A DNA stretch of 38,235 nt from Opitutales bacterium (GTDB taxonomy: Bacteria > Verrucomicrobiota > Verrucomicrobiia > Opitutales > Oceanipulchritudinaceae): assembly GCA_020831585.1 (NCBI GenBank), contig JAFIGE010000037.1, positions 1-38,235 on the forward strand, read 5' to 3'. Both the position numbers and the translations under genes were made by a program. The notes under the pieces were generated by a model, which was not told where the DNA came from, searched no databases, and saw nothing but the letters and a program-made list of their open reading frames with translations. Each line of letters starts with the position of its first letter. Position 1 is the stretch's first letter. Positions 10,345 through 34,164 of the stretch are shown here, in pieces.

Positions 10345-10390
10345 TACTCCTGCGGGAGTATGGTGTTGGGTCCCCCTTGGCGGATATAAT
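10345..10390 (+). promoter_or_regulatory. Candidate promoter with palindrome upstream of the exported-protein cassette
   Basis: A consensus TATAAT lies at 10385-10390, 16 bases before the ATG at 10407. Upstream is a perfect palindrome, TACTCC-TGCG-GGAGTA (10345-10360), close to where a -35 element would be. The -35 itself is poor, so an activator or alternative contact is possible. Assigning the palindrome as an operator is inference. Confidence 0.4.
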
Positions 10391-10406
10391 CGGCGGCACA
10401 AGGATC

Positions 10407-12032: not shown

Positions 12033-12071
12033 GGCACGCCCACGATCGCCCCCGCACGCCCCCCGCATCCC

Positions 12072-14573: not shown

Positions 14574-15081
14574 AACTGCCCTTCAGGGCCAATACCGTCA
14601 TTGCCAACGGCACCGGGTGTGAACCCCTCCTGCAAAAGGATGCGGCTGTCATCGAACACCACAGGGTCGACGATCTCATGCGCGCTACCCGGCTTTGCGC
14701 CGAGGCCATCGGTGCGGTAAGGTCGTCGTGTCGCACCAGGTTATGCGGACCTTGCTTCACCGCCACCTGAGGTGAGGGCGGAGTGCAGGACGACGGAAGC
14801 TGGCGCTGGAAGCGTTGTGGCCGGATTTTCAAGGTGAGCGTCAAAATCCGGTGAAGATTTCCGTCCGAAACGGGCGGTTTCCGGCAAAAAACTTACTCCC
14901 TGTTTTGTAAGAACCTGATTTACAGGTGGATTTGTTTTCCACTTGGTCCCTCCGGCATGTGAATAACTTTTCCGCCGAACCTTCCAAAAACTGGCACTCC
15001 GGGGGCGCGAATGCTTGACTCGGGGAGGAAATGTAGGGAAATGTCATAGGATGGGGCAAACGGAATAAATGGTGTCACACG
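14574..15081. other. Gene-free stretch upstream of the dcw cluster
   Basis: No coding frame I can support; a minus-strand frame of about 100 codons (14536-14844) has no recognisable product and overlaps the preceding gene. The right half is AT-richer and holds TTGACT at 15015-15020. A GGAAATGT direct repeat follows. The dcw promoter must lie here, but no matching -10 at standard spacing is clear. Confidence 0.5.
15027..15056 (+). promoter_or_regulatory. Candidate MraZ-binding direct repeats
   Basis: GGAAATGT occurs at 15027-15034 and again at 15037-15044, exactly ten bases apart. A related GGATGGGG follows at 15049-15056. MraZ proteins bind G-rich direct repeats at about ten-base spacing just upstream of their own gene, and this array lies 26-55 bases before the mraZ start. 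The match is by position and layout, not exact sequence. Confidence 0.4.
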
Positions 15082-15531
15082 ATGGACGGTCTCTTCGCAC
15101 AGGGTGTTTATATCGGGAACTTCGCGCACAATCTGGATGCGCGGAACCGGGTGACTGTGCCGTCGAACTGGCGTGTGGTGGGGGACGAGGGGAATTTCTA
15201 CTTTGGTTGGCCGGACAAGGCGGGGTGCATTTCGGTGATGCCGCCGCACATGCTTCAGGGGCTGCTGGAAAAAGCGCGGGACCTGAAGCAGCAAAATGTC
15301 GCCACGCAGGCCGCGCTCCGCCGTTTTTTTGGCAAGGGGACGCAGTTTGGCTGCGACAAACAGGGGCGCATTTTGCTGTCCGAGCCACTGCTGAAGCACG
15401 CCGGGATCACCAAACCGGTGGTCATGGTGGGCCTTGGCTTAACCTTTCAAATCTGGAACCCAGAGCGCTACGACGAGGCCGACGCAGCTTTCGATGTGGC
15501 CGACGCCGGTGCCGAACTGGAGTTCTTCTGA
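15082..15531 (+). CDS. mraZ: Division/cell wall cluster transcriptional repressor MraZ
   Basis: A 149-residue protein with two SpoVT/AbrB-type halves. The first half has AHNLDARNRVTVPSNWR (usual form LDxKGRxxxP). The second has CDKQGRILLSEPLLKHAGI followed by VVMVGLGLTFQIWNPERYDEA. MraZ forms ring-shaped oligomers that bind G-rich direct repeats and repress its own operon. It is the first gene of the dcw cluster, and its stop overlaps the proposed rsmH start (TGATG). The ATG at 15082 lacks a clear ribosome site, but the protein aligns from its first residues (FAQGVYIGNF), so the start is probably right. Confidence 0.93.
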   Translation: MDGLFAQGVYIGNFAHNLDARNRVTVPSNWRVVGDEGNFYFGWPDKAGCISVMPPHMLQGLLEKARDLKQQNVATQAALRRFFGKGTQFGCDKQGRILLSEPLLKHAGITKPVVMVGLGLTFQIWNPERYDEADAAFDVADAGAELEFF

Positions 15532-16616
15532 TGGTATGGATGCCTTTCCAAATGCTCGTTGGGTGCTCGTCGCCCGCCCCGGTGGAGCGGGGCGGGCGGC
15601 GGTCGCCGCACCCGGTGGGGAGGTGGCCCGTGCGTGAGGATGCACCCATCGGCGGCGGCCATGTGCCGGTGCTTCTGGATGCCGTGCTGGAGGCGCTGGA
15701 TACCGCGCCGGAGCGTCGCCTGCTCGATGGAACTTTTGGGGGTGGGGGACACACCCGCGCCCTTCTCGACCGGGGGCACCATGTGCTCGCAATTGATTGC
15801 GACCCCGATGCGGAGGCGCGCGCAGCCGCTCTGCAGACGGCGTATGGGGCGCGTTTCCGCTTCCGTGCGGGCAACTTTACGGACCTCGCCGAGCTGGTGG
15901 GGGATGAGCGGTTCGATGGTATTCTCTTCGATTTCGGACTTTCCTCCTTCCACTACGACACGGCGGAACGCGGCTTTTCCTTCCGGCATGACGGTCCCCT
16001 GGACATGCGCCTGGACCCGCGCCGGGGTCGGACGGCGGCGGAGTTTCTCGCCAACGCATCGCACGGGGAATTGGCGCAGGCCATCCGGATCTTTGGGGAG
16101 GAGCCCCAGTGGCGCCGCATTGTTGAGGCCATTTTGGAGACCCGCGAGAGCGTGCCCCTGCGCCGCACCGTTGATCTCACGCGGTTGGTGGAGGGGGTGG
16201 TGAGCCGCCGTCCCGGCCCGCCGCTCAAGATTCACCCGGCCACGCGCACTTTCCAGGGCATCCGTATCGCGGTGAACGAGGAGCTGCAGGTGATTGAGGC
16301 GGTGCTGCCGCAGGCCTTCGCCGCGCTGCGTCCGGGGGGGCGGCTGGCTGCAATCAGTTTTCATTCGCTGGAGGACCGTCTCGTGAAGCGCTTTTTCCGC
16401 CGCATGGCGGGCCAGCCGGAGCACGACCGCGACGCCCGTCCGCAACAGGAGCGCGTGTGCCAGGCGCGCGTCCTCACCCGGCGCCCCATCGAGGCGACGG
16501 ATGCCGAAGTCTTTGCCAATCCACGTTCCCGCTCAGCCAAACTGCGGGTGCTGGAAAAACCATACGCTACCCAGACTGAAAACCATGACCCATCCCACCC
16601 ACCGTCCCGCTTCTAA
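15531..16616 (+). CDS. rsmH: 16S rRNA m4C1402 methyltransferase
   Basis: RsmH (MraW) N4-methylates C1402 of 16S rRNA using S-adenosylmethionine. Visible motifs, in order: HVPVLLDAVL; the SAM-binding LDGTFGGGGHTRALL; the DFGLSSFHYD block (usually DLGVSSxQLD); GFSFRHDGPLDMRLD; FQGIRIAVNEEL; and PGGRLAAISFHSLEDRLVKRFFR. The longest frame from the overlapping ATG at 15531 gives 361 residues, about 40 more than usual. The extra N-terminal residues (MVWMPFQMLVG...) are not conserved-looking, so a later start, for example the GTG at 15630, is possible. The 3' end overlaps the ftsL-like gene by 32 bases. Confidence 0.92.
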   Translation: MVWMPFQMLVGCSSPAPVERGGRRSPHPVGRWPVREDAPIGGGHVPVLLDAVLEALDTAPERRLLDGTFGGGGHTRALLDRGHHVLAIDCDPDAEARAAALQTAYGARFRFRAGNFTDLAELVGDERFDGILFDFGLSSFHYDTAERGFSFRHDGPLDMRLDPRRGRTAAEFLANASHGELAQAIRIFGEEPQWRRIVEAILETRESVPLRRTVDLTRLVEGVVSRRPGPPLKIHPATRTFQGIRIAVNEELQVIEAVLPQAFAALRPGGRLAAISFHSLEDRLVKRFFRRMAGQPEHDRDARPQQERVCQARVLTRRPIEATDAEVFANPRSRSAKLRVLEKPYATQTENHDPSHPPSRF

Positions 16617-18755: not shown

Positions 18756-18883
18756 CGACACAAATACGCATTTCCTTGAATACACTCAGCCCAATCACCG
18801 AACGCCCCGCGCGGGGCGCCCGCTCTTTCATTGTCGGCGGCAGCTCGCAGCTCTTGCAGCGGGCCGCCCGCCGGCCCGCCTCC

Positions 18884-20365
18884 ATGAACCTTCGCCTCGA
18901 ACAGCTCTTTTCCGGTATTCCCGATGTGCGCGTGGAAGGGGATGCCCGCCGTCCCGTGCACGCGCTGTGCTCGGATAGTCGCCGCGTTACCCCCGGTGCG
19001 GTCTTTTTCGCCTTGCCCGGAGCCCGCACAAACGGCGGGCAATACATCGAGGAAGCGGTTCACCGCGGGGCCATCGCCGTGGTCGCACCGACTCAGGTAT
19101 GGGTGCCGCGTACCGCCACCCTCATCGTGGCTCCGGCGATTCGCCGCACCCTCGCTCTTTGCGCGCGCCGTTTTTATGGAAGCCCGCAGGATAAGCTTCA
19201 ACTGACCGGCGTGGCCGGCACGAGTGGCAAGACCGTCGTCGGGAGCCTGACGCGGCATTTCCTGGAGGCCGGGGAAGCGCCGGTGGGGTTTCTCGGAACG
19301 ATCCATTACGCCCTTGGCGCGCGCACCCTGCCGGCTTACCGCACCACGCCCGAGCCCATCGACATGCACGCCATGCTCGCCCAGATGGTGGAGGGTGGGG
19401 CGAAGGAGGCGATCCTTGAAGTCTCCTCCCATGGCATCGATCAGGAGCGTGTTTTCGGTCTGGATTGGGAATCGATGGTCTTTCTCAACCTCTACGGCGA
19501 GCATCTGGACTACCACGGCTCGCTCGAAAACTACTACGCTGTGGTCAAGCGGGCCTTCGACGGCAGCCTCGGCAAATCGCCCCGCCGGGCAATTGTGAAT
19601 GTCGACGATGTCTGGGGCCGCCGGCTTCTCGACGAACTTCACCCCGACATCGAACGCATCACTTTCGGCACCTCCGAAGAAGCGCGTTTCCGTGCCTCGG
19701 AGATCGAATGCGGCCCGGACGGAACGCGGTTCACCCTCACCGTGGACGGGGAGACCTTCCGGGTATTTTCGCCGCTTCCCGGTCGCTTCAATGTCGACAA
19801 CCTTCTCGCCGCGCTGGCCGCGACGGCGCACCGCGTGCCGACCGCCACTGCCCTGGGGCGCCTCATCGATTTTGACGGTGTGCGCGGGCGCACGGAAAAG
19901 GTCGATGCCGGCCAATCCTTCCACGTCGTGGTGGATTACGCGCATACGCCCGGCTCCTATGCGAAGACGCTGGAAATGCTGCGCTCCCTCACGAAGGGAC
20001 GTGTGCTCACCGTCTTTGGTTGCGGGGGCGACCGCGATGCCCGCCAACGGCCCCTCATCGCCCGCACCGTCGCCGACCTCTCCGATATGGCCTGGGCCAC
20101 GGCGGACAATCCGCGCGGGGAGACCCTCGACGGCATTTTCGCGGATATCCGCAGCGGTCTGCGTGTGAAGGACCTGGTGACCTTTATCGATGACCGTCGC
20201 CAGGCCATCAGCCTTGCGCTCGATGCCGCTGCGCCGGGGGATATCGTCCTCATCGCGGGCAAGGGCCATGAGACTTTTCAGGAGTATGCGGATTCGATTG
20301 TGCCATTCGACGACCGCGCCGTGGCCCGCGAACTCCTCCGCAAAAAGATGGGAGTGGAGACCTGA
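18884..20365 (+). CDS. murE: UDP-MurNAc-tripeptide ligase MurE
   Basis: MurE adds the third stem-peptide residue to UDP-MurNAc-L-Ala-D-Glu in the cytoplasm. The 493-residue form starts at MNLRLEQLFSGIP, a typical MurE opening; the frame stays open upstream to a TTG at 18776 (529 residues), but that segment looks non-conserved. The ATP loop is GVAGTSGKT (residues 109-117), with Ser where Asn is usual. Also visible: YRTTPEP, EVSSHGIDQERV, NLYGEHLDYHGSLENYYAVVKRAF (the lysine normally carbamylated), VVDYAHTPGSY, VFGCGGDRDARQRP and ATADNPRGE. The DNPR motif is the signature for meso-diaminopimelate addition. murF follows after three bases. Confidence 0.93.
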   Translation: MNLRLEQLFSGIPDVRVEGDARRPVHALCSDSRRVTPGAVFFALPGARTNGGQYIEEAVHRGAIAVVAPTQVWVPRTATLIVAPAIRRTLALCARRFYGSPQDKLQLTGVAGTSGKTVVGSLTRHFLEAGEAPVGFLGTIHYALGARTLPAYRTTPEPIDMHAMLAQMVEGGAKEAILEVSSHGIDQERVFGLDWESMVFLNLYGEHLDYHGSLENYYAVVKRAFDGSLGKSPRRAIVNVDDVWGRRLLDELHPDIERITFGTSEEARFRASEIECGPDGTRFTLTVDGETFRVFSPLPGRFNVDNLLAALAATAHRVPTATALGRLIDFDGVRGRTEKVDAGQSFHVVVDYAHTPGSYAKTLEMLRSLTKGRVLTVFGCGGDRDARQRPLIARTVADLSDMAWATADNPRGETLDGIFADIRSGLRVKDLVTFIDDRRQAISLALDAAAPGDIVLIAGKGHETFQEYADSIVPFDDRAVARELLRKKMGVET

Positions 20366-20368
20366 GAG

Positions 20369-21769
20369 ATGTTGCGCTTCCCACCCGAGACGCTTGCCCA
20401 ATGGACCCTTGGAACCTGGCACGGCCTTCCCGCCGAACCGATCCGTGGCTTCCGCCTGGACTCGCGCCGGGTGCAGCCGGGCGATCTCTTCTTTGCCCTG
20501 CGCACGGAGCTCCGCGACGGGCATGATTTTGTTGGCGCGGCCCAGGCCGCCGGAGCCGTCGGTGCGGTGGTCGAGCGCCTTATCCCGGATTGCCCCTTGC
20601 CCCAACTTTTGGTGGAATCCCCGGAGCGGGCTTTGCAGGCGATGGCGCGCGCCCATCGTCTCCGTTTTCCGGGCAAGGTGATCGGTATCACCGGCAGTTG
20701 CGGGAAGACGTCCTGCAAGGAAATGCTCGCCGCCCTTCTCGGGAGGGAGCGCACGCACTTCACCGAGGGCAACCTCAACAATCACCTCGGTCTCCCGCTC
20801 ACCCTTCTCGGTCTCGATCCCGCGCGGCACGATCAGGCTGTCGTGGAGGCGGGCATCAACCACACCGGGGAAATGGATGTGCTCGGCGACATTCTTCAAC
20901 CCGATGCCGCCATCATCACGCACATCGGAGAGGCCCACCTCGCCGGTCTGGGGGGCAATCTCGAAGGCGTCGCCCGCGAAAAGGGCACGCTCCTGCGCCA
21001 TGTGCGCGCGGGCGGATTTGCGGCCTATCCGGGAGCCTGCCTGGCCTACGCGCCCTTCGCCGAGGCCCCCGCGCAGCTCGAAAAAATCTTTCTGACTGGG
21101 ACGGAGTTGCCCGCACCCAAGGCGGATACGCGCTTTGTCTCGACCAACTACAAGACTGATTCCGAGAATCCCGGCGACCCGGGCGGTGATTGCCTTTTGT
21201 GTGTGAGGCAGTCGCCTGCCCGGGTCGAAGAGATCCCGGGTGTGCCCCGCCTGAGCGCGGGGATGCTTTCCAACCTCGTGCTCGCCTGGACGGTGGCCCG
21301 CGCCCTCGGCGTGCCCGCCGACACCCTGCGCGGGCGCATCGCCCAATGGCAGCCGTCCTTCGGTCGCGCCGACTTGAGGATCATCGGTGGGCGCTCGTAT
21401 TTCGTGGACTGCTACAACGCCAACCCCGCCTCCATGCGCGACAGCCTGCGCTTTTTCCAGGAGCGTTTTCCGCAGCCCCCCCGTTGCTACGTGTTGGGCG
21501 GCATGAAGGAACTTGGGGCGGTCGCTCCCGCCGCTCACCGTGAAGCGGCCGCTTTGCTGCAACTGGAGGCCGCCGACACCGCCGTCTTCGTGGGTGAGGA
21601 GGGCGCATGGTATCGCGAGGGGCTTGGGCGAGCGGATTCCGCCGCCGTCGTGGCCGATGCCGATGCCGCCCGTCCGCTTGTCGAAGCGTCCTCCGGCCCC
21701 GTCTTTCTCAAAGGCAGCCGCGCCTACGCCTTGGAAAAACTTCTACCTGCGGAGGTTTACGCATGTTGA
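20369..21769 (+). CDS. murF: UDP-MurNAc-pentapeptide synthetase MurF
   Basis: A 466-residue ligase that adds D-Ala-D-Ala (made by the Ddl encoded downstream) to the UDP-MurNAc tripeptide. Motifs: an N-terminal substrate domain with RLDSRRVQPGDLFFALR; the ATP loop GITGSCGKTSCKEML; FTEGNLNNHLGLPLTLL; VVEAGINHTGEMDVLG; ITHIGEAHLAGLG; and a C-terminal domain with VDCYNANPASMRDSL and VLGGMKELG. The length is normal. Between about residues 250 and 290 there is a less conserved insert rich in charged residues. It starts three bases after murE, and its end overlaps mraY by seven bases. Confidence 0.94.
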   Translation: MLRFPPETLAQWTLGTWHGLPAEPIRGFRLDSRRVQPGDLFFALRTELRDGHDFVGAAQAAGAVGAVVERLIPDCPLPQLLVESPERALQAMARAHRLRFPGKVIGITGSCGKTSCKEMLAALLGRERTHFTEGNLNNHLGLPLTLLGLDPARHDQAVVEAGINHTGEMDVLGDILQPDAAIITHIGEAHLAGLGGNLEGVAREKGTLLRHVRAGGFAAYPGACLAYAPFAEAPAQLEKIFLTGTELPAPKADTRFVSTNYKTDSENPGDPGGDCLLCVRQSPARVEEIPGVPRLSAGMLSNLVLAWTVARALGVPADTLRGRIAQWQPSFGRADLRIIGGRSYFVDCYNANPASMRDSLRFFQERFPQPPRCYVLGGMKELGAVAPAAHREAAALLQLEAADTAVFVGEEGAWYREGLGRADSAAVVADADAARPLVEASSGPVFLKGSRAYALEKLLPAEVYAC

Positions 21770-22863
21770 TCGAACTCGCCGCCTTCGAAGAAATCTTCGG
21801 CCCCTTCCGCCTCTTCCGCTTTCTCTCTTTCCGGTCAGTGGGCGGAGCGGTGACGGCCTTTGTCATCGGTCTGGTGATTGCGCCGTTCATCATCGCGCGC
21901 CTGCGCAAACTCAAAGCGGCGCAGGTTTTCCGCGACCACGCCACCGTGGGCAAACTGGCCGATCTCCACAGCGGCAAAGTGGGCACACCCACGATGGGCG
22001 GCCTCATCATTTTCTTCTCCACCACCGTCAGCGTGCTCCTGTGGACGCGCTGGAACACCTTTATCATGGTCGCCCTGCTCGTGTATGCGGGGCTCACCCT
22101 GATCGGCTTTCTCGACGATTTCCTGAAGATTACCCGGAAGAAGAGCGGGGGCCTTTCCGGGCGCTACAAGCTCCTCGGGCAGCTCATTCTCACCGGCCTT
22201 GCCCTCGCCATCCTTCTCCTCAGCGAGACCACCGCTCCCTTCATCCAGCAGATCTGGATCCCCTTCCACAAAGACCCTATTCTCCTCGCCCTGCCGGTCT
22301 TGCCGCTCTTTGTCTTTTTCTTTCTTGTCCTCGCCGGTTCGAGCAACGCCATCAACCTCACCGACGGCGTCGACGGTCTGGCCATCGGCTGCACCATCAC
22401 GGTGGCGCTCTCCTACGGGCTCATCGCTTACGCTTCCGGTCACGCCGTCTTCGCGAGCCACCTTCTTCTGCCGTTTCTGCCGGGTTCCGGCGAACTCGCC
22501 GTGTTTTGCGCCATTCTCTGCGCGGCCTCGCTGGCCTTTCTCTGGCACAACGCGCACCCGGCCGCCGTCTTTATGGGCGATACCGGCTCGCTCGCTCTGG
22601 GCGGTGTCATCGGAGCCATCGCCTTCATGCTCCTCCAGCCGTTCACGCTCATCATCATTGGCGGGGTCTTCGTCGCCGAGGCGCTCTCCGTTATTCTGCA
22701 GGTGGGGAGCTTCAAGGCCCGCCGCAAACGCATTTTCCGCATGGCTCCGATCCACCACCATTTTGAACTCCTCGGTTGGGCCGAAACCCAGGTGGTCATT
22801 CGCTTCTGGATACTTTCCCTCATTTGCTCGATTGCGGGCCTCGCCACCCTTAAACTCCGATGA
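21763..22863 (+). CDS. mraY: Phospho-MurNAc-pentapeptide transferase MraY
   Basis: A 366-residue polytopic enzyme that transfers phospho-MurNAc-pentapeptide to undecaprenyl phosphate to make lipid I. About ten membrane spans are present. Catalytic blocks are intact: KVGTPTMGGLIIF; FLDDFLKITRKKSGGLSGRYKLLGQ; the NLTDGVDGLAIG loop; HNAHPAAVFMGDTGSLALGG; and the PIHHHFEL triple-His loop near the end. The start at 21763 has GGAGG at good spacing; the frame is open further upstream inside murF, but not with MraY-like sequence. The TGA stop at 22861-22863 overlaps an ATG that opens a 54-codon frame filling the gap to the LysM gene. Confidence 0.95.
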   Translation: MLIELAAFEEIFGPFRLFRFLSFRSVGGAVTAFVIGLVIAPFIIARLRKLKAAQVFRDHATVGKLADLHSGKVGTPTMGGLIIFFSTTVSVLLWTRWNTFIMVALLVYAGLTLIGFLDDFLKITRKKSGGLSGRYKLLGQLILTGLALAILLLSETTAPFIQQIWIPFHKDPILLALPVLPLFVFFFLVLAGSSNAINLTDGVDGLAIGCTITVALSYGLIAYASGHAVFASHLLLPFLPGSGELAVFCAILCAASLAFLWHNAHPAAVFMGDTGSLALGGVIGAIAFMLLQPFTLIIIGGVFVAEALSVILQVGSFKARRKRIFRMAPIHHHFELLGWAETQVVIRFWILSLICSIAGLATLKLR

Positions 22864-23024
22864 AATCCGTTGCCAATATGAACCTCCGGTCCAATCTCGG
22901 AGATGCGGGTTTTAATCCGAACCCGCCGACCCCGAAAGGTGTCTCCTTAGGTATGCCCGGAGGCGCGTTTCCCAACCCGCCCGGTCGGCGTTTTTCTAAC
23001 TGTATCCAACCTTGTTTTCCATGA
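22860..23024 (+). CDS. Possible 54-residue small protein between mraY and the LysM gene
   Basis: An ATG at 22860 overlaps the mraY stop (ATGA), and the frame runs 54 codons to a TGA that overlaps the ATG of the LysM gene (ATGA again). It therefore exactly fills the gap, with both junctions of the coupled type common in this cluster. The product is Pro, Gly and Asn rich (for example AGFNPNPPTPKG and GMPGGAFPNPPG), has one Cys pair near its end, and has no recognisable domain, signal peptide or membrane span. No Shine-Dalgarno is evident. The same bases can form competing hairpins, so the stretch may act as structured RNA instead. This is the usual position of murD, but no MurD-like residues are visible. 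Confidence 0.3.
   Translation: MKSVANMNLRSNLGDAGFNPNPPTPKGVSLGMPGGAFPNPPGRRFSNCIQPCFP
22924..22995 (+). terminator. Long-loop terminator-like structure with competing upstream hairpin
   Basis: CGCCGACC (22924-22931) pairs perfectly with GGTCGGCG (22983-22990), followed at once by TTTTT (22991-22995). A second perfect 7-bp stem, GCGGGTT / AACCCGC (22905-22911 with 22920-22926), overlaps the left arm by three bases, so the two stems cannot both form fully. That is the layout of an attenuator, with terminator and competing stem. The 51-base loop is unusually long and is partly filled by CTCC / GGAG pairing. Confidence 0.35.
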
Positions 23025-24214
23025 AACTCAGTCAAATATTTGGTTTGGTCGTCTTGATCCATTTGGGGATCGTTGCGGCGCTCCTCATCCAACCCGGTTG
23101 CCAGACGCAACGTCCGGCTGACCCCGATCCTTCTATGACGACGCAGGCGGCTCCCACGGCGGGCAACGTCCGCTCGGCAAATGACCGGACCTCGCCGGCC
23201 CGCCCCGTCGATGCGCACCCGGGGGAGGTCGATCCCGCCTTCAATGCCGGTTTTCAGCCGAGCGCGCGCCGATCTGAGCCGATGCGTCCCGTTTCTCCAA
23301 CCACGGCGGCACCGGCGCGAACAGAAGGCCGCACGGATGTGACCGGAGGCGGTGTTTTGCGGCCTCTCACCCCGGTCGATCCCGCCGCGAATGACCGTCC
23401 CTTTAGCTCCGATGCTCCTTCCGCTCCTTCCCAGACCTATACCGTTCAGCGCGGGGACAACCTCACGGTCATCGCGCGCCGCTTCAACGTTGGGTTGAAC
23501 GAACTCCTCGCCGCAAACAACCTGCGCCGGGACTCCACCATTTTTGCCGGTCAGGAGCTCACCATTCCCGCTCCCGCCCGCGAAGCGACTCCCTCTGGAC
23601 CCGCCAGCGTGCCCGCCGATGGGCGGGAGGCGCGCTATACCGTGCAGGCCGGTGACACCCTTACACGCATCGCCAATCGCTTTGGGGTGACCGTCGCCGA
23701 GATCCGCAGCGCCAACGGTTTAACTTCCGATACGATCCGCGTGGGCGATACGCTTCGCATCCCGGGTGTGGCCGGAACAACCGCCGGGCCGGCCGCCTCG
23801 CCCCCGTCGCCCGCCACTGCCCCGCGCGCGACGGCCTCCGGTGAGACTTACACTGTGCAAAGAGGGGACACCCCCATCACGATTGCCCGTCGGTTAGGTG
23901 TTTCGGCCGAGGAACTCATGCGGGTAAACAGCATTTCCGATCCGCGCCGGCTCTTTGTCGGTCAAGAGTTGATCGTGCCCTCGGGGGGGCGTGCGCCCGC
24001 CTCAAGCGCCCCCGCGCGCACCCCGCCACCCGCGCCGCCCGCGCCGCGCACAACCACTCCGCCCGCCGCCGAAACGGTCCCGCTCCGGCCTCAGCCAAGC
24101 CAGCCCGCCCGCATCACACCGCCACCGCCCACGCTCGACGATCTGGATGCGTTGGATGATGATGACCTTCCCTTTGTGGATGTGGAAACCATTCCGCCGC
24201 GGGGCGATGACTGA
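23021..24214 (+). CDS. Triple LysM-domain cell-wall binding protein
   Basis: A 397-residue membrane-anchored or lipoprotein-like protein. An N-terminal hydrophobic span (about 6-24) ends at GCQTQ; Cys27 could be lipidated, but the residues before it (IQPG) are a poor lipobox. A disordered Pro/Ala/Thr region leads to three LysM domains at about 140-183, 206-248 and 277-320. Each begins YTVQxGDT or a close form and ends in an (I/F)xxGQEL or (I/V)GDTLRIP segment; LysM binds GlcNAc in peptidoglycan. A Pro-rich stretch and an acidic tail follow (LDDLDALDDDDLPF). No catalytic domain is present. It sits between mraY and ftsW where murD is usual, so a role in wall binding at the division site is a reasonable inference. 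Confidence 0.85.
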   Translation: MKLSQIFGLVVLIHLGIVAALLIQPGCQTQRPADPDPSMTTQAAPTAGNVRSANDRTSPARPVDAHPGEVDPAFNAGFQPSARRSEPMRPVSPTTAAPARTEGRTDVTGGGVLRPLTPVDPAANDRPFSSDAPSAPSQTYTVQRGDNLTVIARRFNVGLNELLAANNLRRDSTIFAGQELTIPAPAREATPSGPASVPADGREARYTVQAGDTLTRIANRFGVTVAEIRSANGLTSDTIRVGDTLRIPGVAGTTAGPAASPPSPATAPRATASGETYTVQRGDTPITIARRLGVSAEELMRVNSISDPRRLFVGQELIVPSGGRAPASSAPARTPPPAPPAPRTTTPPAAETVPLRPQPSQPARITPPPPTLDDLDALDDDDLPFVDVETIPPRGDD

Positions 24215-24233: not shown

Positions 24234-25394
24234 ATGGACGTCCCGGCCAACACGCTGTTTCCCTCGCCATCCTTGCGCCAGCGCGTGCCGGGCCTCCTCA
24301 CCTTTGTCCTTGTTTTTGCCCTTAGCCTGACCGGGCTCCTCATGCTGTTCAGCGTGGGTCGCTCGCTCGATGAGGGACGGCAGTCGACCTTCGTCGTCAA
24401 ACAGACCATCTGGCTCGGCGTCGGGCTGGCGGCCTTTTTTGTTACTTACCGGCTGAATCTCGAAAAGCTCCGTCCGCTTGTTTGGCTCATGGGTGTCGGC
24501 GGGCTCGTGCTCCTTGTGCTCGTTTTGCTGCCGGGTATCGGTCTGCTCGTGAACGGCGCGCGGCGCTGGATTTCCCTCGGATTCATGAATATGCAGGTGT
24601 CCGATTTTGCGAAGATCGCTTTTCTCTTCGTGCTCGCCCGCTACCTCTCCGACAACCAGCGCCACATGGGGGAGTTTGTTCGCGGATACGTCATTCCGGT
24701 CAGTTTGGTCGCGATACCCTGTGGACTCATTCTTCTCCAGCCGGACTTTGGCACGGCGGCTCTCTTCGGGCTCGTCGGCGGGCTTTTGCTCTTCCTCGGC
24801 GGGGCGCGCCTGCTCTACCTTATCCCGAGTGGTATCGCGGCTCTGAGCCTCTTTGCTGTGGCGATCTACCATGATCCCATACGCTTTCGCCGCGTGATGT
24901 CTTTCATGGATGTGGAAGCTCACCGCAACGATGCGACGTTTCAGCTCTGGCAGGGGCTCATCGCCTTTGGCAGCGGCGGGCTCTCCGGGCGGGGGATCGG
25001 ACAGGGGAGGCAACAAATGGCCTTTCTACCGGAGGCACACACCGACTTCATCTTTCCCATCATCGGCGAGGAACTTGGCCTCATCGCCACCGGAGCCATC
25101 ACCCTGGCCTTTCTCGCTCTTTTCATGGTCGGCATGACGCAACTGCTCCGCGCCCATAATCGCTACCAGTTTATCCTCGGGGCCGGCGCGCTTTTTTTCA
25201 TCATCTTTCAGGCGATCGTGAACATGGGCGTGGCCACCGGTCTCATGCCCACCAAGGGGATGTCGCTTCCGTTCATCAGCTACGGGGGCTCCAATCTCGT
25301 GACCATGTTTATCCTCACCGGCCTCCTTCTCAATTGCTTTGAGGAGTGGAACCGGGAACGGCCGCTGGCGGCGCGGGAAAGGAGAAAGAGTTAG
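24234..25394 (+). CDS. ftsW: Septal peptidoglycan polymerase FtsW
   Basis: A 386-residue SEDS-family glycosyltransferase that polymerises lipid II at the septum with FtsI. Ten membrane spans are expected. Family blocks seen: GARRWISLGFMNMQVSDFAKIAFL; LLQPDFGTAALF; the large periplasmic loop with FQLWQGLIAFGSGGLSGRGIGQGRQQMAFLPEAHTDFIFPIIGEELG; and MGVATGLMPTKGMSLPFISYGGSNL. It stops with TAG (25392-25394), two bases before the murG ATG. The presence of ftsW here with ftsI encoded upstream is standard for the cluster. Confidence 0.94.
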   Translation: MDVPANTLFPSPSLRQRVPGLLTFVLVFALSLTGLLMLFSVGRSLDEGRQSTFVVKQTIWLGVGLAAFFVTYRLNLEKLRPLVWLMGVGGLVLLVLVLLPGIGLLVNGARRWISLGFMNMQVSDFAKIAFLFVLARYLSDNQRHMGEFVRGYVIPVSLVAIPCGLILLQPDFGTAALFGLVGGLLLFLGGARLLYLIPSGIAALSLFAVAIYHDPIRFRRVMSFMDVEAHRNDATFQLWQGLIAFGSGGLSGRGIGQGRQQMAFLPEAHTDFIFPIIGEELGLIATGAITLAFLALFMVGMTQLLRAHNRYQFILGAGALFFIIFQAIVNMGVATGLMPTKGMSLPFISYGGSNLVTMFILTGLLLNCFEEWNRERPLAARERRKS

Positions 25395-25396
25395 CC

Positions 25397-26551
25397 ATGG
25401 GTCGGTTTGTCATCGTCTGCGGCGGCACCGGTGGGCACCTCGCGCCCGGTGTGGCCATGGCTCAGGAACTGACCGCCCGAGGGCATACCTGCACGCTCAT
25501 CCTGAGTGAGAAGGAGGTGGATAGCCGCCTCGTCAAAAAGTATCCGGAATTTCCCGTCGTCCGCTCCCCCGGCAGTGGTTTTTCGATGCGCCCGCGGGGC
25601 TTCGTGAGGTTTTTATCGGGGGTCTTGCGCGCGATCTTTTTTGCCCTCCGCTGGTATCGGGACGAGCGTCCGGATGCCGTGCTCGCCTTCGGTGGTTTCC
25701 TTGCCACGGCCTATGTCCTGGCGGCGTCGTCACACGACATCCCGATCTTTCTCCACGAGGCCAATCGCAAACCGGGCAAAGCCATCCGCTTCCTGGCCCG
25801 CTTTGCCGACCGCGTTTACCTGCCCCACGATGTGAGCCTGCGCGCGCTCTGGATGTTTGGAGCGAAACACATTGGTTTTCCCATTCGCCGCGACGTGCGC
25901 CACCTGCCCAAGGAAATGGTGCGGCAATCCCTCGGCTTTCCGCGGCACGCCAAGTTGCTGGTGGTTTTTGGCGGCAGCCAGGGAGCCGTTGTTTTGAATG
26001 AATGGGCCGAGCAGCATCTCGAGTCCCTGACCTCCGATGGCATTCACCTCATCGTCATCACTGGTCCCGGCAAAGGCGAGGAGGTCTCGCACACACGCGT
26101 TTCCGAGAGCGGGGAAGCCGTGACGGCCCGGTTTCTCCCCTTTGCCGACTACATGGGCTCGCTTCTTTCCGCCGCGGACCTCGTGGTTTCCCGAGCAGGG
26201 GCAGGGAGTATTGCGGAGATCACCGAATGCCTTGCACCGGCCGTTCTCATTCCCTATCCCTATTCCGCCGATCAGCATCAGCAGGAAAACGCCGCCTATC
26301 TGGAGCGAAAGGGCGGGTGCCTACTCCTTCCGCAATCGGACATGAAGGGCCTCTACCGGGAGGTGCTCGATCTGATCTTCAACGACTGGCTCCTCTCCCG
26401 GATGCGCGGGAATCTGCGCGCTCTCCAGCGGGGCAACGAGGCCGCCCATATTGCCGACGATATGGAGCGCATTCTCATCCGTCTCCGGGGCGAACGCGAA
26501 GCGCCCGAGAGTCTGTCCCGGGAAGAGGAAGAAGCGGAGGTGCGCGCATGA
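25397..26551 (+). CDS. murG: Lipid II synthase MurG
   Basis: A 384-residue GT28 glycosyltransferase that adds GlcNAc to lipid I on the cytoplasmic face of the membrane. Motifs: the N-terminal GGTGGHLAPGVAMAQEL (glycine-rich loop); FGGFLATAYVLAA; HEANRKPGKAIRFLARFAD; the linker GGSQGAVVLNEW; and the UDP-GlcNAc site SRAGAGSIAEITECLAPAVLIPYPYSADQHQQENAAYL. The first glycine loop is complete. Start: ATG at 25397 with GGAGAAAGAG upstream. The stop overlaps ddl by ATGA. Confidence 0.94.
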   Translation: MGRFVIVCGGTGGHLAPGVAMAQELTARGHTCTLILSEKEVDSRLVKKYPEFPVVRSPGSGFSMRPRGFVRFLSGVLRAIFFALRWYRDERPDAVLAFGGFLATAYVLAASSHDIPIFLHEANRKPGKAIRFLARFADRVYLPHDVSLRALWMFGAKHIGFPIRRDVRHLPKEMVRQSLGFPRHAKLLVVFGGSQGAVVLNEWAEQHLESLTSDGIHLIVITGPGKGEEVSHTRVSESGEAVTARFLPFADYMGSLLSAADLVVSRAGAGSIAEITECLAPAVLIPYPYSADQHQQENAAYLERKGGCLLLPQSDMKGLYREVLDLIFNDWLLSRMRGNLRALQRGNEAAHIADDMERILIRLRGEREAPESLSREEEEAEVRA

Positions 26552-27501
26552 GCTTGCCCTCGCCAACCCCGGTCATTGCAGTCCTGTGCGGGGGTCCCGG
26601 TGCGGAGTGCGAAGTCTCCCGCAACTCGGGCCGGGCAGTTTACGAGGCTCTGGCTCCGCGCATGCCCGCCGAACTCCACGACCTCGCCGGGACCGAACTG
26701 CCCGCGTCCCTCAACCCCGCCACGCACATTGTCCTGCCGGTCATCCACGGCACCTTCGGCGAAGACGGCCAACTTCAGGCGCTCCTCGATCAGGCGGGCT
26801 TTCATTATGCCGGTTGCGATGCGGCAGCCAGTTGCCTCTGTATCGACAAAATGGAGACAAAGCGGGTCGTTGCCGCTGCCGGCCTGCCGGTTATCCGCGG
26901 ATGGCAACACGGCCCCGCTGCGCCGCTCGATCCGGCCGCCATCGATGATACGGGGATGCGCGGATTCATCGCCAAGCCCCGCGCCGAGGGCAGCAGTGTC
27001 GGCCTCACCGTTTTGGCGGACCGCGCCGCACTGCTTCGTTTCCTCGCGCAGTCACCGACTCACGACTGGGTAATCGAAGAACGCATTATCGGTTGCGATG
27101 TCACCGTGGGCATTCTCGATGGCGAGCCCATGGGGGTCATTGGTATCCACCCGGAGGGCGGTCTCTACGATTACCAGCGCAAATACACCGCCGGTCAGAC
27201 GCGGTATGAAGTCCCCGCTGTGCTTCCCGATGACCTTACCGAGCAGTTGCGTGCGGCTTCGGCGAAGGTGTTCGCCGCCTGTGGGTGTCGCGATTTCGCG
27301 CGGGTCGATTGGATGCTCAGCGGGGCGCGGCAACCTTTCTTCCTGGAAGTGAACACGCTCCCGGGGATGACCGCGACGAGCCTCTTCCCAAAGTCCGCTT
27401 CCGTATCCGGTATCGACTTTCCCACTCTTGTCGAACGCATGGTCGCGGGTGCCCGCCATCGCCATGCCCACCCATTTCACCCCAGGCCCGTTTCCCGATG
27501 A
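26548..27501 (+). CDS. ddl: D-alanine--D-alanine ligase
   Basis: A 317-residue ATP-grasp enzyme joining two D-alanines for MurF. Blocks: VLCGGPGAECEVSRNSG at the N-terminus; PVIHGTFGEDGQLQALLDQAGFHYAGCDAAASCLCIDKMETKRVV; IAKPRAEGSSVGLTVL; VIEERIIGCDVTVGIL; GLYDYQRKYTAGQTRYEVPA (the Tyr-containing loop that favours D-Ala over D-Lac); and FARVDWML followed by EVNTLPGMTATSLFPKSA. The real start is the ATG at 26548 overlapping the murG stop; the frame stays open upstream inside murG, without Ddl-like sequence. murC and murB, often found before ddl, are not here. Confidence 0.94.
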   Translation: MSLPSPTPVIAVLCGGPGAECEVSRNSGRAVYEALAPRMPAELHDLAGTELPASLNPATHIVLPVIHGTFGEDGQLQALLDQAGFHYAGCDAAASCLCIDKMETKRVVAAAGLPVIRGWQHGPAAPLDPAAIDDTGMRGFIAKPRAEGSSVGLTVLADRAALLRFLAQSPTHDWVIEERIIGCDVTVGILDGEPMGVIGIHPEGGLYDYQRKYTAGQTRYEVPAVLPDDLTEQLRAASAKVFAACGCRDFARVDWMLSGARQPFFLEVNTLPGMTATSLFPKSASVSGIDFPTLVERMVAGARHRHAHPFHPRPVSR

Positions 27502-28409
27502 AAAAGAAAGCCGAGAAAAAGAACAACCCCACCAATTGGCGGGAAATCCAGCAGAGCGGACGTCAAACCCGCACGCCCATTGCCCTGCGCCAACGCCGTC
27601 TTGCTTTGCTCAAAGTGGGGCTGGTTGCCATGATCGTGCTCATCGCCATCGGCTCCGTCGGTTACACGGCGCATTTCATGCACAGCGAGTTCACCCGCAA
27701 TAGCCCCTTGCGCCAAGAGAAGCCACTCTCCCGCGTGGTTTTTGAGTCCGACGGGGTTCTCAACGGAGATTGGCTCCTGGCCCACCTTCCTTTCGAGATT
27801 GGCACTGACATCTTTTCCCTCGACGTCCATGCAATCAAGCGCGAGGTCGAGAGCCATGGACAGGTGCGTGAGGCGAGCGTCTCCATCGAGCTCCCCAATA
27901 CCATCGTCGTCCGTGTCCGGGAGCAGATTCCCTTGCTGCGTGCGCGTGTGCCGGATGCCAACGGGGGCGCGCGCACCCTTCTCATTTCCGAAACCGGTGA
28001 GGTCTATGAGGGCACGCTCTATCCGCCCGATACGCTCCGCCGCCTGCCGGCCGTCACCGGCGTGCGCCTGATCGCTCACGAGAACGGCTTTGTTCCGCTC
28101 GAAGGAATGAAAGTCATCGCCGATCTGATTTACCTCACGCGCGAAGTCGCCCCCCACATTTTTGCGGATTGGCGGTGGATTTCCCTCGAACGTTTCCGTC
28201 CCGATGTTTTCGCCCCCGGTGTCGAAATCGAGGTGCGCGGTCGCTTTATCGATACCCTCCTGCTCACCCCCTACGATTTTGAAGCCCAGCTCCTTCATCT
28301 CGACGGCGTTCTCGATGCCGCGCGCCGCCGGGGAGCGCGCGGCTTGGAGATGGTCGATCTGACCATTCCCGATCGCGCCGTTGTCCGCTTCGCCCAAGCC
28401 ACGCGGTGA
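27498..28409 (+). CDS. ftsQ: Cell division protein FtsQ
   Basis: A 303-residue bitopic division protein. It has a basic cytoplasmic N-terminus (MKKKAEKKNNPTNWREIQ), a membrane span (about residues 38-62) and a periplasmic POTRA region with VVFESDGVLNGDWLLAHLPFEIGTDIFSLDVHAIKREVESHGQVREASVSIELPNTIVVRVREQIPLLRAR, followed by the FtsQ beta domain. FtsQ recruits FtsL/FtsB to the ring. The ATG at 27498 overlaps the ddl stop by ATGA. Sequence identity to well-studied FtsQ is low, but topology, the POTRA pattern and position agree. Confidence 0.88.
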   Translation: MKKKAEKKNNPTNWREIQQSGRQTRTPIALRQRRLALLKVGLVAMIVLIAIGSVGYTAHFMHSEFTRNSPLRQEKPLSRVVFESDGVLNGDWLLAHLPFEIGTDIFSLDVHAIKREVESHGQVREASVSIELPNTIVVRVREQIPLLRARVPDANGGARTLLISETGEVYEGTLYPPDTLRRLPAVTGVRLIAHENGFVPLEGMKVIADLIYLTREVAPHIFADWRWISLERFRPDVFAPGVEIEVRGRFIDTLLLTPYDFEAQLLHLDGVLDAARRRGARGLEMVDLTIPDRAVVRFAQATR

Positions 28410-28458
28410 GTTTTGCTTCTCGATAACCATCCATCAAACACCAGGAAAGCACAGTCCT

Positions 28459-29670
28459 ATGCCACGCAGCCGAATCATTGCCGGAGTTGAAATTGGAACA
28501 AGCAAGGTCGCCGTCCTCGTTGGAGAGGTCATCGACGGTCGCTCCCTCAACATCATTGCCCTCGGTCAGGCCACCTCGCGGGGCGTGCGCAAAGGGGTGA
28601 TCTACGACACCGCCGCCGCCGGCCACTCGGTCCACGCCGCCCTGCGCTCGGCCGAACACAACGCCGGTGCCGCCATCGAATCCGTCTATCTGGCCGTTAC
28701 CGGCGGACACCTCGATGGCTTCGAAAATTCCGGGGTCGTCACGGTGGAGGATGCCGACAACTGGGTGAGCCCGAACGATGTGCAACGCGCCGCCCAGAGC
28801 GCCCGCGCCAAGGCCCTTCCCGATGGCCGCCTTTACCTCACCCACGTGCGTGGCCGCGCTTTCCTCGACGGATCGGAAAACCCGCATCCGATCAAACAAC
28901 AGGGGTCCAAACTCGAACTGCGCTACTGGCACATCCACGCGAGTCGCCGGGAGGTGGAAAACCTTCTCTGGGTCATCAATGGTTACAACGATCTGAACGT
29001 GCAGGAGGTCATCCCCGGCAGCATCGCATCGGGGCACATCGCCACCACCCCGGAGGAGCGCGGTCTTGGAGCCCTCGTGGTCGACATTGGCGCGGGCACC
29101 ACCGACTACGCGCTCTATCGCAAAGGCAAGGTCGAGCGCACCGGAGTCATTCCCGTTGGCGGGGATCACCTCACCAACGACCTCAGCATGGCCTTCCGCA
29201 TCTCCTTTAAACAAGCGGAGAGCCTCAAGCTTCGCTATGGCACCGCTCTTCTTGAGCCGGATAAGTCAAGAAAAGTGATGTTGATGGGCGATTATCAGAT
29301 CGGTGACCGCGAGCTGCCCCTGCACTCCATCACGCGGGTTATCAATCTTCGCCTCGGCGAAACCCTCGCTTTTATTAAAAACAAGTTGGGCAGCGCGATC
29401 AGCCAGCAAAACACCCCCGCCGGGGTCCTCCTCACCGGCGGCACCGCGCAGATGCCGCAAATCGCCACCCTCGGGCGCCAGATCTTCGGTGTGGAGACGC
29501 GGGTTGCCGATTCGCCCGATTGGATCCGGCGGGAAGACCTGCGCTCGCCCGAGTTCCACTCCGTCATCGGTCTGTTGCGCTTCGGTGTGCAGGGCGGGGC
29601 GCTCGACGATGTTGCTCAGCCGCAAACCAAGTCCGGCTTCTGGCCGCGCATTGGGCAGTTTTTCAAATAA
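28459..29670 (+). CDS. ftsA: Cell division protein FtsA
   Basis: A 403-residue actin-like ATPase that tethers FtsZ to the membrane. Actin-fold blocks: GVEIGTSKVAVLVGEV (phosphate 1), LVVDIGAGTTDYALYRKGK (phosphate 2), VILPVGGDHLTNDLSMAF-like connect region and GVLLTGGTAQMPQIATLGRQIFG (adenosine). The 1C domain lies at about residues 80-170. The C-terminus ends in a short amphipathic helix, FWPRIGQFFK, the usual membrane-targeting tail. Start: ATG at 28459 with AGGAAA upstream, 49 bases after ftsQ. FtsA binds the FtsZ C-terminal peptide, which is conserved in the FtsZ encoded next. Confidence 0.94.
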   Translation: MPRSRIIAGVEIGTSKVAVLVGEVIDGRSLNIIALGQATSRGVRKGVIYDTAAAGHSVHAALRSAEHNAGAAIESVYLAVTGGHLDGFENSGVVTVEDADNWVSPNDVQRAAQSARAKALPDGRLYLTHVRGRAFLDGSENPHPIKQQGSKLELRYWHIHASRREVENLLWVINGYNDLNVQEVIPGSIASGHIATTPEERGLGALVVDIGAGTTDYALYRKGKVERTGVIPVGGDHLTNDLSMAFRISFKQAESLKLRYGTALLEPDKSRKVMLMGDYQIGDRELPLHSITRVINLRLGETLAFIKNKLGSAISQQNTPAGVLLTGGTAQMPQIATLGRQIFGVETRVADSPDWIRREDLRSPEFHSVIGLLRFGVQGGALDDVAQPQTKSGFWPRIGQFFK

Positions 29671-29688: not shown

Positions 29689-31149
29689 ATGAACGATCCT
29701 CATGCCTCTTCTTCCGGGAACCGCCCCGGCGATCCCTTCGAAAACTCCCCGCTCCTTCGCATCAAGGTCGTCGGGGTGGGAGGTGCCGGCACAAACGTGG
29801 TCGACCGCATGCGCATGTGTGGCGATTCCGAGCTGGAACTCGCTGTTGTCGGCACCGCGCGCAAGTGCCTGGTCGATTCGCCCGTGCCCGAAAAGGTTAT
29901 GATCGGCGCGGAGATCACCTGCGGCTTCAGCGCCGGAGGGGATGTCGATCTTGGTCGGAAAGCCGCCGAGGCCGACCGCCCCGCCTTGCAGAAACTGTTC
30001 GCCGGAGTGGATCTCGTTTTCCTCGTCGCCGGGGTAGGGCGGGGGACCGGTAGCGGCGCCGCGCCCGTCGTCGCCGAAGAGGCGGCCAAAGCCGGGGCTC
30101 TTGTTGTGGGTTTTGTTCTGCTCCCGTTTTCGCGCGAGGGTTCGCGCCGGGCGCGCGCTGCCGAGGAGGCCGTGGTCCGCTTGCGCAACGCGTGTCATTG
30201 CGTCATCGCCTTGCCCAACGACCTCATTTCCCAGCACACCGATGAGGAGACCAGCATCCTCGAAGCGCTCGGCGTAGCGGATGAGTGGATACGCCGGGGC
30301 ACCTTTGCCATTGCCTCCATGGTGCGCGAAAGCGGGCTCATCAATGTGGACTTCGCCACCCTCCGCCAAGCCTTCCCCTTCTTCGGTGGCAAGGCGCTCT
30401 TTGGTCTGGGGCGCGCCGAGGGTGCGGGCTTCGTCGAAAAGGCGCTCCAGGATTTGGCCCTGTGTCCGCTCCTTCATCTTCCCGACAACCGCTACGTCCG
30501 CCGAACCGACAGCCTCATTCTCCACCTGCGCGGCGGACCCGATCTCACCATGACAGCGGTCAACCGCGTCATGGACTTCGTCACGGAAAAGTTTGGCTGC
30601 CGCGATAACACCGTTCTCGGTGCCGTCATCGACAGCCGCCTCAAAGGAAAGTTGGAAATCACCATCATCGGCACGGTCGATGTCACTGGTGCGCGCCGTC
30701 CGCCCGCCAATGTCACCCACCCGCCGCGCGCGGCCGCGCACAGCCCCGCGTCCTTTGCCCTCACCCCGCCCGCTCCGGCCCCCGCGGCCCGCGAGCCGAT
30801 TTTGCCCCCGCCGGAGCCGGAACTGCCGGACACCCCGGCAGAGATCGCGGCGGAAATTGAGGAGCCGGACACCCCGGAGCCCGTCGCCGTTGCGGCCGAG
30901 AGCGAAAGGGACAGCGGTTTCATCGATTTCGAAACCGGGAGGCCCGTGGGAGCCTCCGCCCCCGCCGCCTCACAATCCGAGGGACGCGGCAAGCGGCAAG
31001 CCGCCAACGAAGCCCAGTGCGAGCTGCCCTTCCCGGGCGAAGAAGAAGCGCGCGGTCACTTTGAGAGCACCGCGCGCTACGATCTCGACGGTCAGGATCT
31101 GGACGTGCCCACCTTTATCCGGCGGCACGTTCGCATTGCCCTCCACTGA
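29689..31149 (+). CDS. ftsZ: FtsZ with altered GTPase site residues
   Basis: A 486-residue tubulin-like protein that forms the division ring. The fold is clear: T1 loop IKVVGVGGAGTNVV, T4 region AGVGRGTGSGAAPVV, T6 ALPND, T7 LINVDFATLR and a long C-terminal domain. Residues 330-460 are a Pro/Ala/Glu-rich linker, and the conserved C-terminal peptide LDVPTFIRR (FtsA binding) follows near the end. Several active-site residues differ from the usual FtsZ. The T2 motif NTDAQ is GTARK (55-59), the signature GGGTGTG has Arg118 as its second residue, and the T7 catalytic Asp (NVDFAD) is Thr224. The T3 loop is also changed (GFSAGGDVD). The codons are unambiguous, and Asp to Thr needs two base changes. 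GTP hydrolysis is therefore doubtful by analogy with E. coli Asp212, though polymerisation may remain. It lies 18 bases after ftsA. Confidence 0.93.
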   Translation: MNDPHASSSGNRPGDPFENSPLLRIKVVGVGGAGTNVVDRMRMCGDSELELAVVGTARKCLVDSPVPEKVMIGAEITCGFSAGGDVDLGRKAAEADRPALQKLFAGVDLVFLVAGVGRGTGSGAAPVVAEEAAKAGALVVGFVLLPFSREGSRRARAAEEAVVRLRNACHCVIALPNDLISQHTDEETSILEALGVADEWIRRGTFAIASMVRESGLINVDFATLRQAFPFFGGKALFGLGRAEGAGFVEKALQDLALCPLLHLPDNRYVRRTDSLILHLRGGPDLTMTAVNRVMDFVTEKFGCRDNTVLGAVIDSRLKGKLEITIIGTVDVTGARRPPANVTHPPRAAAHSPASFALTPPAPAPAAREPILPPPEPELPDTPAEIAAEIEEPDTPEPVAVAAESERDSGFIDFETGRPVGASAPAASQSEGRGKRQAANEAQCELPFPGEEEARGHFESTARYDLDGQDLDVPTFIRRHVRIALH

Positions 31150-32956: not shown

Positions 32957-33018
32957 TCTTCTCAAAAATTTCTCTCTCGCATAAATAATTTATTTTGAAA
33001 AATATTATTGACTTTTGG
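32957..33018 (+). promoter_or_regulatory. AT-rich spacer with possible RAYT promoter
   Basis: The 62 bases between uup and the transposase gene are by far the most AT-rich in this part of the window (TAAATAATTTATTTTG and neighbours). Several TAAT/TATT -10-like hexamers occur. No intrinsic terminator for uup is visible. Confidence 0.3.
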
Positions 33019-34164
33019 ATGAGTGATCTTCGGGATGGCGAAATGGAAGACAGTGTGGCGATCGGATTTGCGAAGGGGCTTTTGCCGAAGCGGGGGCGGC
33101 GGCGGCCCCGTGTCTTGGGGAAGCCGGGGAGGGCGGCTGTTTACCATGTGGTGAGCCGGACGTGCGGGCAGGAGTTTCTCCTGGGAATGGTGGAGAAGGA
33201 GCGGATGCGCGATCTCATCGGACGGGTGGCGGGGTTTTGTGGCGTGGAGCTCTTGACCTATTGCATTCTGGACAACCACTTCCACTTGCTGGTGGAGGTG
33301 CCGGGGAAAGTGGGGGAACTGGACGACGCGGAGTTGATCCGGCGGGCGGGGTTCCTTTACGGGGGCAAGGCGCGTCCGGGTCAGCCGCTGACGCTGTCAA
33401 TGGTGGAGGGAGCGCTGGCGGAGGGCGGGGCGACGCGGGCCTATATGCGGGAACTCTTGATGCGTCGGATGGGGAGTTTACCGATGTTTGTGAAGCTGCT
33501 GAAGCAGCGGTTTTCGATCCGTTACAATCGCTTAAACGAGCGGAAGGGGACGCTGTGGGAGGGGCCATTCCGGAGTGTGCTGGTGGAGAACTCGCGGGAG
33601 GCGCTGGCGCTGGTGGGGGCGTACATCGATCTGAACGCGGTGCGAGCAGGGATTGTGGAGGATCCGAAGGACTATCGCTATTGCGGCTATGGTGAGGCGG
33701 TGGGGAAGGGGAAGTTGGGCGGGTATGCGCTGTTAGTGCGTTTGGCGGGAATGGGTTTTGGGGCGGAGTTGTTGAAGATGGAAGCGGAAACGGAGACAAT
33801 TTCCGATGGGACGGCACTTCGTTGCACCCAGGATAGAGTGGAGGCGGCGGGGCAGCTTTACCGCTTGCTGATGTTTGAGGAGGCGACGGATGGGAGCGCG
33901 TCTGAAAAGGGGCGGGTGTTACCGAAGGCGGTTTTTTGGCGAGTGGATGCGGCCGGGGGTGGTTTGTCGAGGGGGCAATTGCTGCGTTGCCGGATTCGCT
34001 ATCTGACGGAGGGCGCGGTGATCGGGAGCCGTGCGTTTGTGGAGGATTGGTTTGCGGGGGTGCGCGGCGCGTTTGGAGGCCGGGAGACCGGTGCGCGTCC
34101 GATGAAGGGCGGGGACTTCGGTGATTTGTGCGCGCTGAGGGATTTGCGCGATCCGCTTGGTTGA
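33019..34164 (+). CDS. REP-associated tyrosine transposase (RAYT, Y1/HUH)
   Basis: A 381-residue protein whose N-terminal 200 residues are a Y1 transposase domain. YHVVSRTCGQE is the first strand, LTYCILDNHFHLLVEVP carries the HUH metal motif (H-F-H, residues 87-89), and LKQRFSIRYNRLNERKGTLWEGPFRS holds the likely catalytic Tyr (about residue 169); AYIDLNAVRAGIVEDPKDYRYCGYGEA is the typical RAYT closing block. About 180 further C-terminal residues are a DnaA-like helical extension or of unknown fold. RAYTs nick DNA at REP hairpins, and REP-like repeats are present at 21-2452. Codon use is heavily G-ending (GGG, GCG), unlike the C-ending neighbours, which suggests separate acquisition. Start: ATG at 33019; the ATG at 33043 is an alternative. 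Confidence 0.85.
   Translation: MSDLRDGEMEDSVAIGFAKGLLPKRGRRRPRVLGKPGRAAVYHVVSRTCGQEFLLGMVEKERMRDLIGRVAGFCGVELLTYCILDNHFHLLVEVPGKVGELDDAELIRRAGFLYGGKARPGQPLTLSMVEGALAEGGATRAYMRELLMRRMGSLPMFVKLLKQRFSIRYNRLNERKGTLWEGPFRSVLVENSREALALVGAYIDLNAVRAGIVEDPKDYRYCGYGEAVGKGKLGGYALLVRLAGMGFGAELLKMEAETETISDGTALRCTQDRVEAAGQLYRLLMFEEATDGSASEKGRVLPKAVFWRVDAAGGGLSRGQLLRCRIRYLTEGAVIGSRAFVEDWFAGVRGAFGGRETGARPMKGGDFGDLCALRDLRDPLG

Follow-up and report, generated by a model that had tools for sequence, protein, structure and literature searches.

It has long been asked whether cell division needs the GTP hydrolysis and treadmilling of FtsZ or just a filament scaffold, and the question has been studied mostly with impaired laboratory mutants. 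One of these, the Escherichia coli allele ftsZ2 (D212G), is said to be viable. In published work the D212G protein retained about a tenth or less of the normal GTPase activity and formed static vortices (PMC7320174), and the allele failed to complement without suppressors (PMC5405962). Filament structures of Staphylococcus aureus FtsZ show that D210 swings to position the attacking water, while D213 holds its position during catalysis, provides the environment and is linked through water to R143. In the same protein the T2 motif provides Mg2+ water ligands, and the replacements D46A and D213N each abolish assembly (PMC8936486). Among Verrucomicrobiota, fast-evolving or divergent ftsZ genes are known from Methylacidiphilum and Prosthecobacter (PMC2474590), the ftsZ of the phylum is divergent in the FtsZ tree (PMC9871819), and the gene is experimentally essential in Verrucomicrobium spinosum (PMC12283558). 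Our literature search returned neither a residue-by-residue description of T7 in Verrucomicrobiota nor GTPase or assembly results for any Opitutales FtsZ.

Here we describe the ftsZ of an Opitutales bacterium whose nearest named relatives are the Opitutales metagenome-assembled genomes CSSed16 and Super_Day6. The gene lies in a window of 38,235 nucleotides, which is the whole stretch of DNA that was analyzed. A first-pass annotation of this stretch had described an FtsZ lacking key GTPase residues and had proposed a search for a second ftsZ and an alignment of FtsZ from Verrucomicrobiota, both of which were carried out.

A single ftsZ at the end of a complete dcw cluster

The ftsZ gene (29689-31149, on the plus strand like all other genes of the cluster) encodes 486 amino acids free of internal stops. 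Its product matched the Pfam profiles Tubulin (PF00091) and FtsZ_C (PF12327) with 103 and 45 bits, respectively, both of which exceed the cut-offs. It was the sole Tubulin-domain gene detected in the 5.28 Mb genome (98.5% complete), and searches of this genome with the Pfam profile and with the protein itself found no second ftsZ. AlphaFold2 modelled the core with a pLDDT mostly above 90, and the TM-score to solved FtsZ was about 0.9 (normalised to the target). The best PDB matches by sequence and by fold were FtsZ, and identity with the bacterial tubulins BtubA/B was rejected.

The gene stands last in a complete dcw cluster. Its other members are mraW (15069..16616, the longest ORF having an N-terminal extension), ftsI (17004-18755), a murE-like Mur ligase (18776-20365), a murF-like Mur ligase (20369-21769), mraY (21607-22863), ftsW (24234..25394), murG (25346..26551), ddl for D-Ala-D-Ala ligase (26002..27501, with an uncertain true start and a longest ORF that overlaps murG), ftsQ (27285..28409, with a POTRA domain and an uncertain start), and ftsA (28381..29670). 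The Pfam annotation of the cluster bears out the earlier claim that ftsA, ftsW and ftsI are intact beside ftsZ, and ftsQ is intact too. The location is that expected of FtsZ, with the order ftsQ-ftsA-ftsZ and a C-terminal LDVPTFIRR in the product. This motif belongs to an FtsA-binding-like peptide (31081..31146; GQDLDVPTFIRRHVRIALH) that is conserved across Opitutales.

The surroundings hold further genes. A LysM-repeat protein is encoded within the cluster between mraY and ftsW (23012-24214), and two long ORFs of 551 and 531 aa without Pfam match (10377-13667) precede a gene for a TSP3-repeat protein and, beyond it, the dcw cluster. An ABC-F gene comes after ftsZ, followed by an ORF with an IS200-like Y1 transposase domain (32995-34164).

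Altered residues and their reach within Opitutales

Residues were assigned by alignment to E. coli FtsZ, with the landmark residues verified by position. On the one hand, several elements of the nucleotide site and the T7 loop are retained. The T1 loop region (VVGVGGAGTN, residues 27-36; 29767..29796) is canonical in its GVGGAGTN, and the glycine of T3 persists as Gly83 (E. coli G71). Also present are the T6 pair Asn177-Asp178 (30217..30222) and the catalytic helper Arg154 (30148..30150; E. coli R142, S. aureus R143). Within the T7 loop, which reads NVDFAT (30343..30360), Asn219 (E. coli N207, S. aureus N208) and Asp221 (E. coli D209, S. aureus D210) are both kept. On the other hand, the canonical NxDFxD with both aspartates is absent from T7: the first is present and the second, at the position of E. 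coli Asp212, is Thr224 (codon ACC; 30358-30360). The T2 motif, N43-T44-D45 in E. coli, is replaced by Gly55-Thr56-Ala57 (GGC ACC GCG; 29851..29859). The T4 signature reads GRGTGSG against the GGGTGSG of the clade, the sole difference being Arg118 (CGG; 30040..30042) at the position of E. coli G106. Since S. aureus FtsZ no longer assembles with either D46A or D213N, the exchanges seen here in T2 and T7 cannot be called trivial. The T7 acid pair is nevertheless incomplete in most Verrucomicrobiota FtsZ, so that both aspartates define the canonical active site and not the FtsZ family.

The first-pass annotation had reported the exchange of Asp212 for a threonine, of NTD for GTA in T2, and an arginine inside the GGGTGTG signature, and the alignment agrees on all three. 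The same holds for the persistence of T1, the T6 ND, the FtsA-binding C-terminal peptide and the fold, as judged by alignment, Pfam and AlphaFold2. Its claim of a changed T3 is weak, since the functional glycine remains, and its phrase "lacking key GTPase residues" names real losses but overstates them, since Asp221, Asn219, Arg154, the T3 glycine and the T6 ND are kept. The overall interpretation was partly right. The trait extends beyond this genome, the Asp212 change being found in practically all Opitutales. Two lysines were also considered, and on position alone we claim neither that Lys235 (E. coli Y222; a Lys conserved in Opitutales directly behind T7) has taken over a catalytic role nor that Lys59 (S. 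aureus Q48, K+ site) fills the potassium site.

Among 55 Opitutales genes chosen independently of T7, the residue at the E. coli 212 position was Thr in 30, Ser in 9, Ala in 9, His in 4, Gly in 1 and Asp in 2. The loss of Asp212 is an order-wide trait, with a non-acid residue in 53 of the 55 genes, and one of the two rows that carry Asp is a second, foreign-looking copy in one genome (G010). Three cultured Cerasicoccus species have Met at this position and Opitutaceae EW11 has Thr, with one Tubulin-domain gene each. The named Opitutales set was left out of the statistics because its search pattern included the T7 position. As for the second ftsZ of G010, a member of the family (L306, G010:C5:60100-61900), it shares 31% identity with the window's protein and has Gly for the first T7 acid and Asp for the second. 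This T7 is like that of other orders of the class, and the copy may come from assembly contamination or transfer.

Nearly all Opitutales have NTD or DTD as their T2, and among close relatives GTA is private to this genome. Only five positions are constant in 14 relatives yet altered here, and N55G and D57A account for two of them. Arg118 is common to the sister genus, and arginine at E. coli position 106 is also found elsewhere in the phylum (about eight changes by parsimony), where it mostly accompanies an intact T2.

T7 acids across Verrucomicrobiota

The phylum-wide alignment comprised 203 Verrucomicrobiota FtsZ from whole genomes picked regardless of T7. Column 213, which follows D212, was hydrophobic in 99% of the rows, and the T7 register is therefore sound. 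The second-acid loss is order-wide in Opitutales, and T7 is variable throughout the phylum. By family majority, 19 of the 81 families carry both T7 acids, 31 the first only, 28 the second only, and 3 neither. Most other orders of the class have lost the first acid (D209) and kept the second, while Opitutales show the reverse.

On the gene tree, a model of dependent loss beat one of independent loss (LR 31.7, p 2e-6). The dependence persisted when another tree was used, when the test was restricted to Asp (p 0.005), and when each family was reduced to a single tip for each state (p 0.001). A small number of deep events can dominate tests of this kind, although parsimony counted 20 to 27 changes per T7 acid site, and the tree is uncertain for a gene so divergent. 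Fitted loss rates were 0.4-0.46 per unit branch length from the two-acid state and 0.03-0.09 for the last acid. When independent loss was simulated in a simple way, 8% of the runs gave as few no-acid tips as observed, so that the signal of avoidance rests on the model comparison. The survey shows a phylum that has repeatedly dropped one T7 acid but rarely both, with losses that avoid each other in the tree-based test.

The survey also returned other Tubulin-domain genes. A second, shorter protein of this kind (~367 aa), a paralogue, is present in five genomes of other classes (L292, L293, L294, L295, L296). It has GGGTGNG but nothing that aligned with the FtsZ T7 loop, and its match to Pfam Tubulin is weak (38.8 bits in L292). 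Family f29, with genomes of 2.3 Mb (L220, L309, L310, L311, L315, L316), is probably Methylacidiphilaceae and has an FtsZ-like gene in which almost all nucleotide-site motifs are altered. In four genomes that are 93-99% complete (G034, G022, G163 and G119; three order-level, one class-level), no Tubulin-domain gene was found at E 0.001, which could mean that FtsZ was lost, that it is extremely divergent, or that the assemblies have gaps.

A probable one-carboxylate active site and its alternatives

We think it fairly probable that the window encodes a working FtsZ of the essential type, which builds the division ring with FtsA by means of a remodelled, composite GTPase site with slower but non-zero turnover. 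Most likely this FtsZ functions, with a one-carboxylate active site that is probably slow, the slower turnover being what mutants in other species lead one to expect. In support of a working FtsZ stand the single gene, the intact dcw cluster, purifying selection, the confident fold, and the phylum-wide retention of at least one T7 acid (3 of 81 families have neither). Against it, the canonical mechanism alone predicts a dead protein, given that D213N and D46A abolish assembly in S. aureus.

In such a site Asp221 alone would position the attacking water, Thr224 would no longer couple to Arg154 through a bridging water, and GTP hydrolysis and subunit turnover would proceed, though more slowly than in E. 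coli. Three positive side chains close to the phosphates, Arg118, Arg58 and Lys59, may make up for the Mg2+ ligands that T2 has lost in this genome. Compensation by any of them is a guess from their position, weakened by the finding that Arg118-type arginines mostly occur with an intact T2 elsewhere. The first-pass annotation had proposed a ring with slow or no GTP turnover, or an unusual nucleotide site. Slow turnover is reasonable in light of E. coli D212G and S. aureus D46A and D213N. The sequence does not support an absence of turnover, because the swinging Asp221 and its partner Arg154 are kept. The unusual nucleotide site is supported, and it is found in the only FtsZ of the cell.

Hydrolysis could instead be near normal if the second T7 acid were dispensable in this background, with other interface residues changed alongside. 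The loss of this acid is indeed ancient and stable, and it spans an order of free-living bacteria with cultured members. However, no specific replacement acid was identified and D212-type mutants of other species are impaired (PMC5405962, PMC7320174, PMC8936486), and we regard this reading as unlikely. Quite unlikely, too, is a static ring in which GTP is a structural cofactor without turnover and septal wall synthesis in the clade is independent of treadmilling. It would fit the strongly reduced GTPase and static vortices of E. coli D212G (PMC7320174), the additional loss of both T2 Mg2+ ligands in this genome, and the few families that keep neither T7 acid. Yet Asp221, Asn219 and Arg154 are conserved, and loss of the remaining T7 acid is avoided phylum-wide, which suggests that it retains a chemical role.

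It is very improbable that the gene is decaying while another system divides the cell, which is the situation in Planctomycetes and Chlamydiae and the one suggested for Nitrosopumilus with its FtsZ. Related phyla have lost FtsZ, ftsZ evolution is reportedly accelerated in Methylacidiphilum and Prosthecobacter (PMC2474590), and the motifs are nearly gone in family f29. Here, on the contrary, the ORF is intact, the C-terminal peptide is conserved, ftsA, ftsQ, ftsW and ftsI are intact, and ftsZ is essential in V. spinosum (PMC12283558). Species of the sister genus share the Thr of T7 and the Arg of T4, and comparisons among them gave an omega of 0.05-0.06; this strong purifying selection argues against decay. 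Between this genome and the sister genus omega was 0.16-0.25, a value made unreliable by a dS above 1. Relative-rate tests against the sister gave no significant acceleration of FtsZ (Tajima chi2 0.6 to 2.3) or FtsA, and accelerated decay of this lineage was rejected. Sequencing error is unlikely for Thr224 and Arg118, which recur in relatives. Finally, the GTA of T2 is seen in one assembly only (262 contigs, the single genome of its genus in the comparison), but an assembly or sequencing artefact is scarcely credible, since T2 would need several independent base changes, codon-position GC is normal, and the sister AVVNTDFKTL aligns without shift to AVVGTARKCL with matching residues around T2, so that a frameshift is rejected.

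Returning to the working FtsZ with one carboxylate, the protein is a natural variant of FtsZ and not a new kind of protein, and its main interest is the phylum-wide pattern in which either acid is kept. It is possible, and we put this forward tentatively, that in Verrucomicrobiota the two-aspartate loop has been split many times into loops with one aspartate, either acid being sufficient. Living, dividing bacteria would in that case depend for their ring on a GTPase that is much slower and works by a different mechanism. The protein encoded in the window would then lie at the extreme, having lost the T2 metal ligands as well and perhaps using an arginine of the phosphate loop in place of the metal. 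A phylum whose natural FtsZ proteins, of the essential type, are missing one or the other catalytic aspartate offers healthy cells in which the need for GTP hydrolysis can be tested, and the either-acid pattern predicts, lineage by lineage, which residue carries the chemistry.

Compared with canonical FtsZ (E. coli, S. aureus, M. tuberculosis), the protein is alike in fold, T1, T6, first T7 Asp, T7 Asn, H5 arginine, C-terminal FtsA-binding-like peptide and dcw position, and differs in having Thr for the second T7 Asp, GTA for the NTD of T2, and Arg for a T4 Gly. It shares with E. coli D212G the missing Asp at the same T7 position, but that is a laboratory allele, whereas here the loss is natural, order-wide, under purifying selection and joined by the T2 and T4 changes. 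Other Verrucomicrobiota FtsZ are likewise divergent and single-copy, often with incomplete T7 acids. The FtsZ homologue of Nitrosopumilus maritimus also has no NVDFAD T7 loop; in contrast to the protein described here, which is encoded in an intact dcw cluster, it does not polymerise, and Cdv is thought to divide the cell (PMC3684127).
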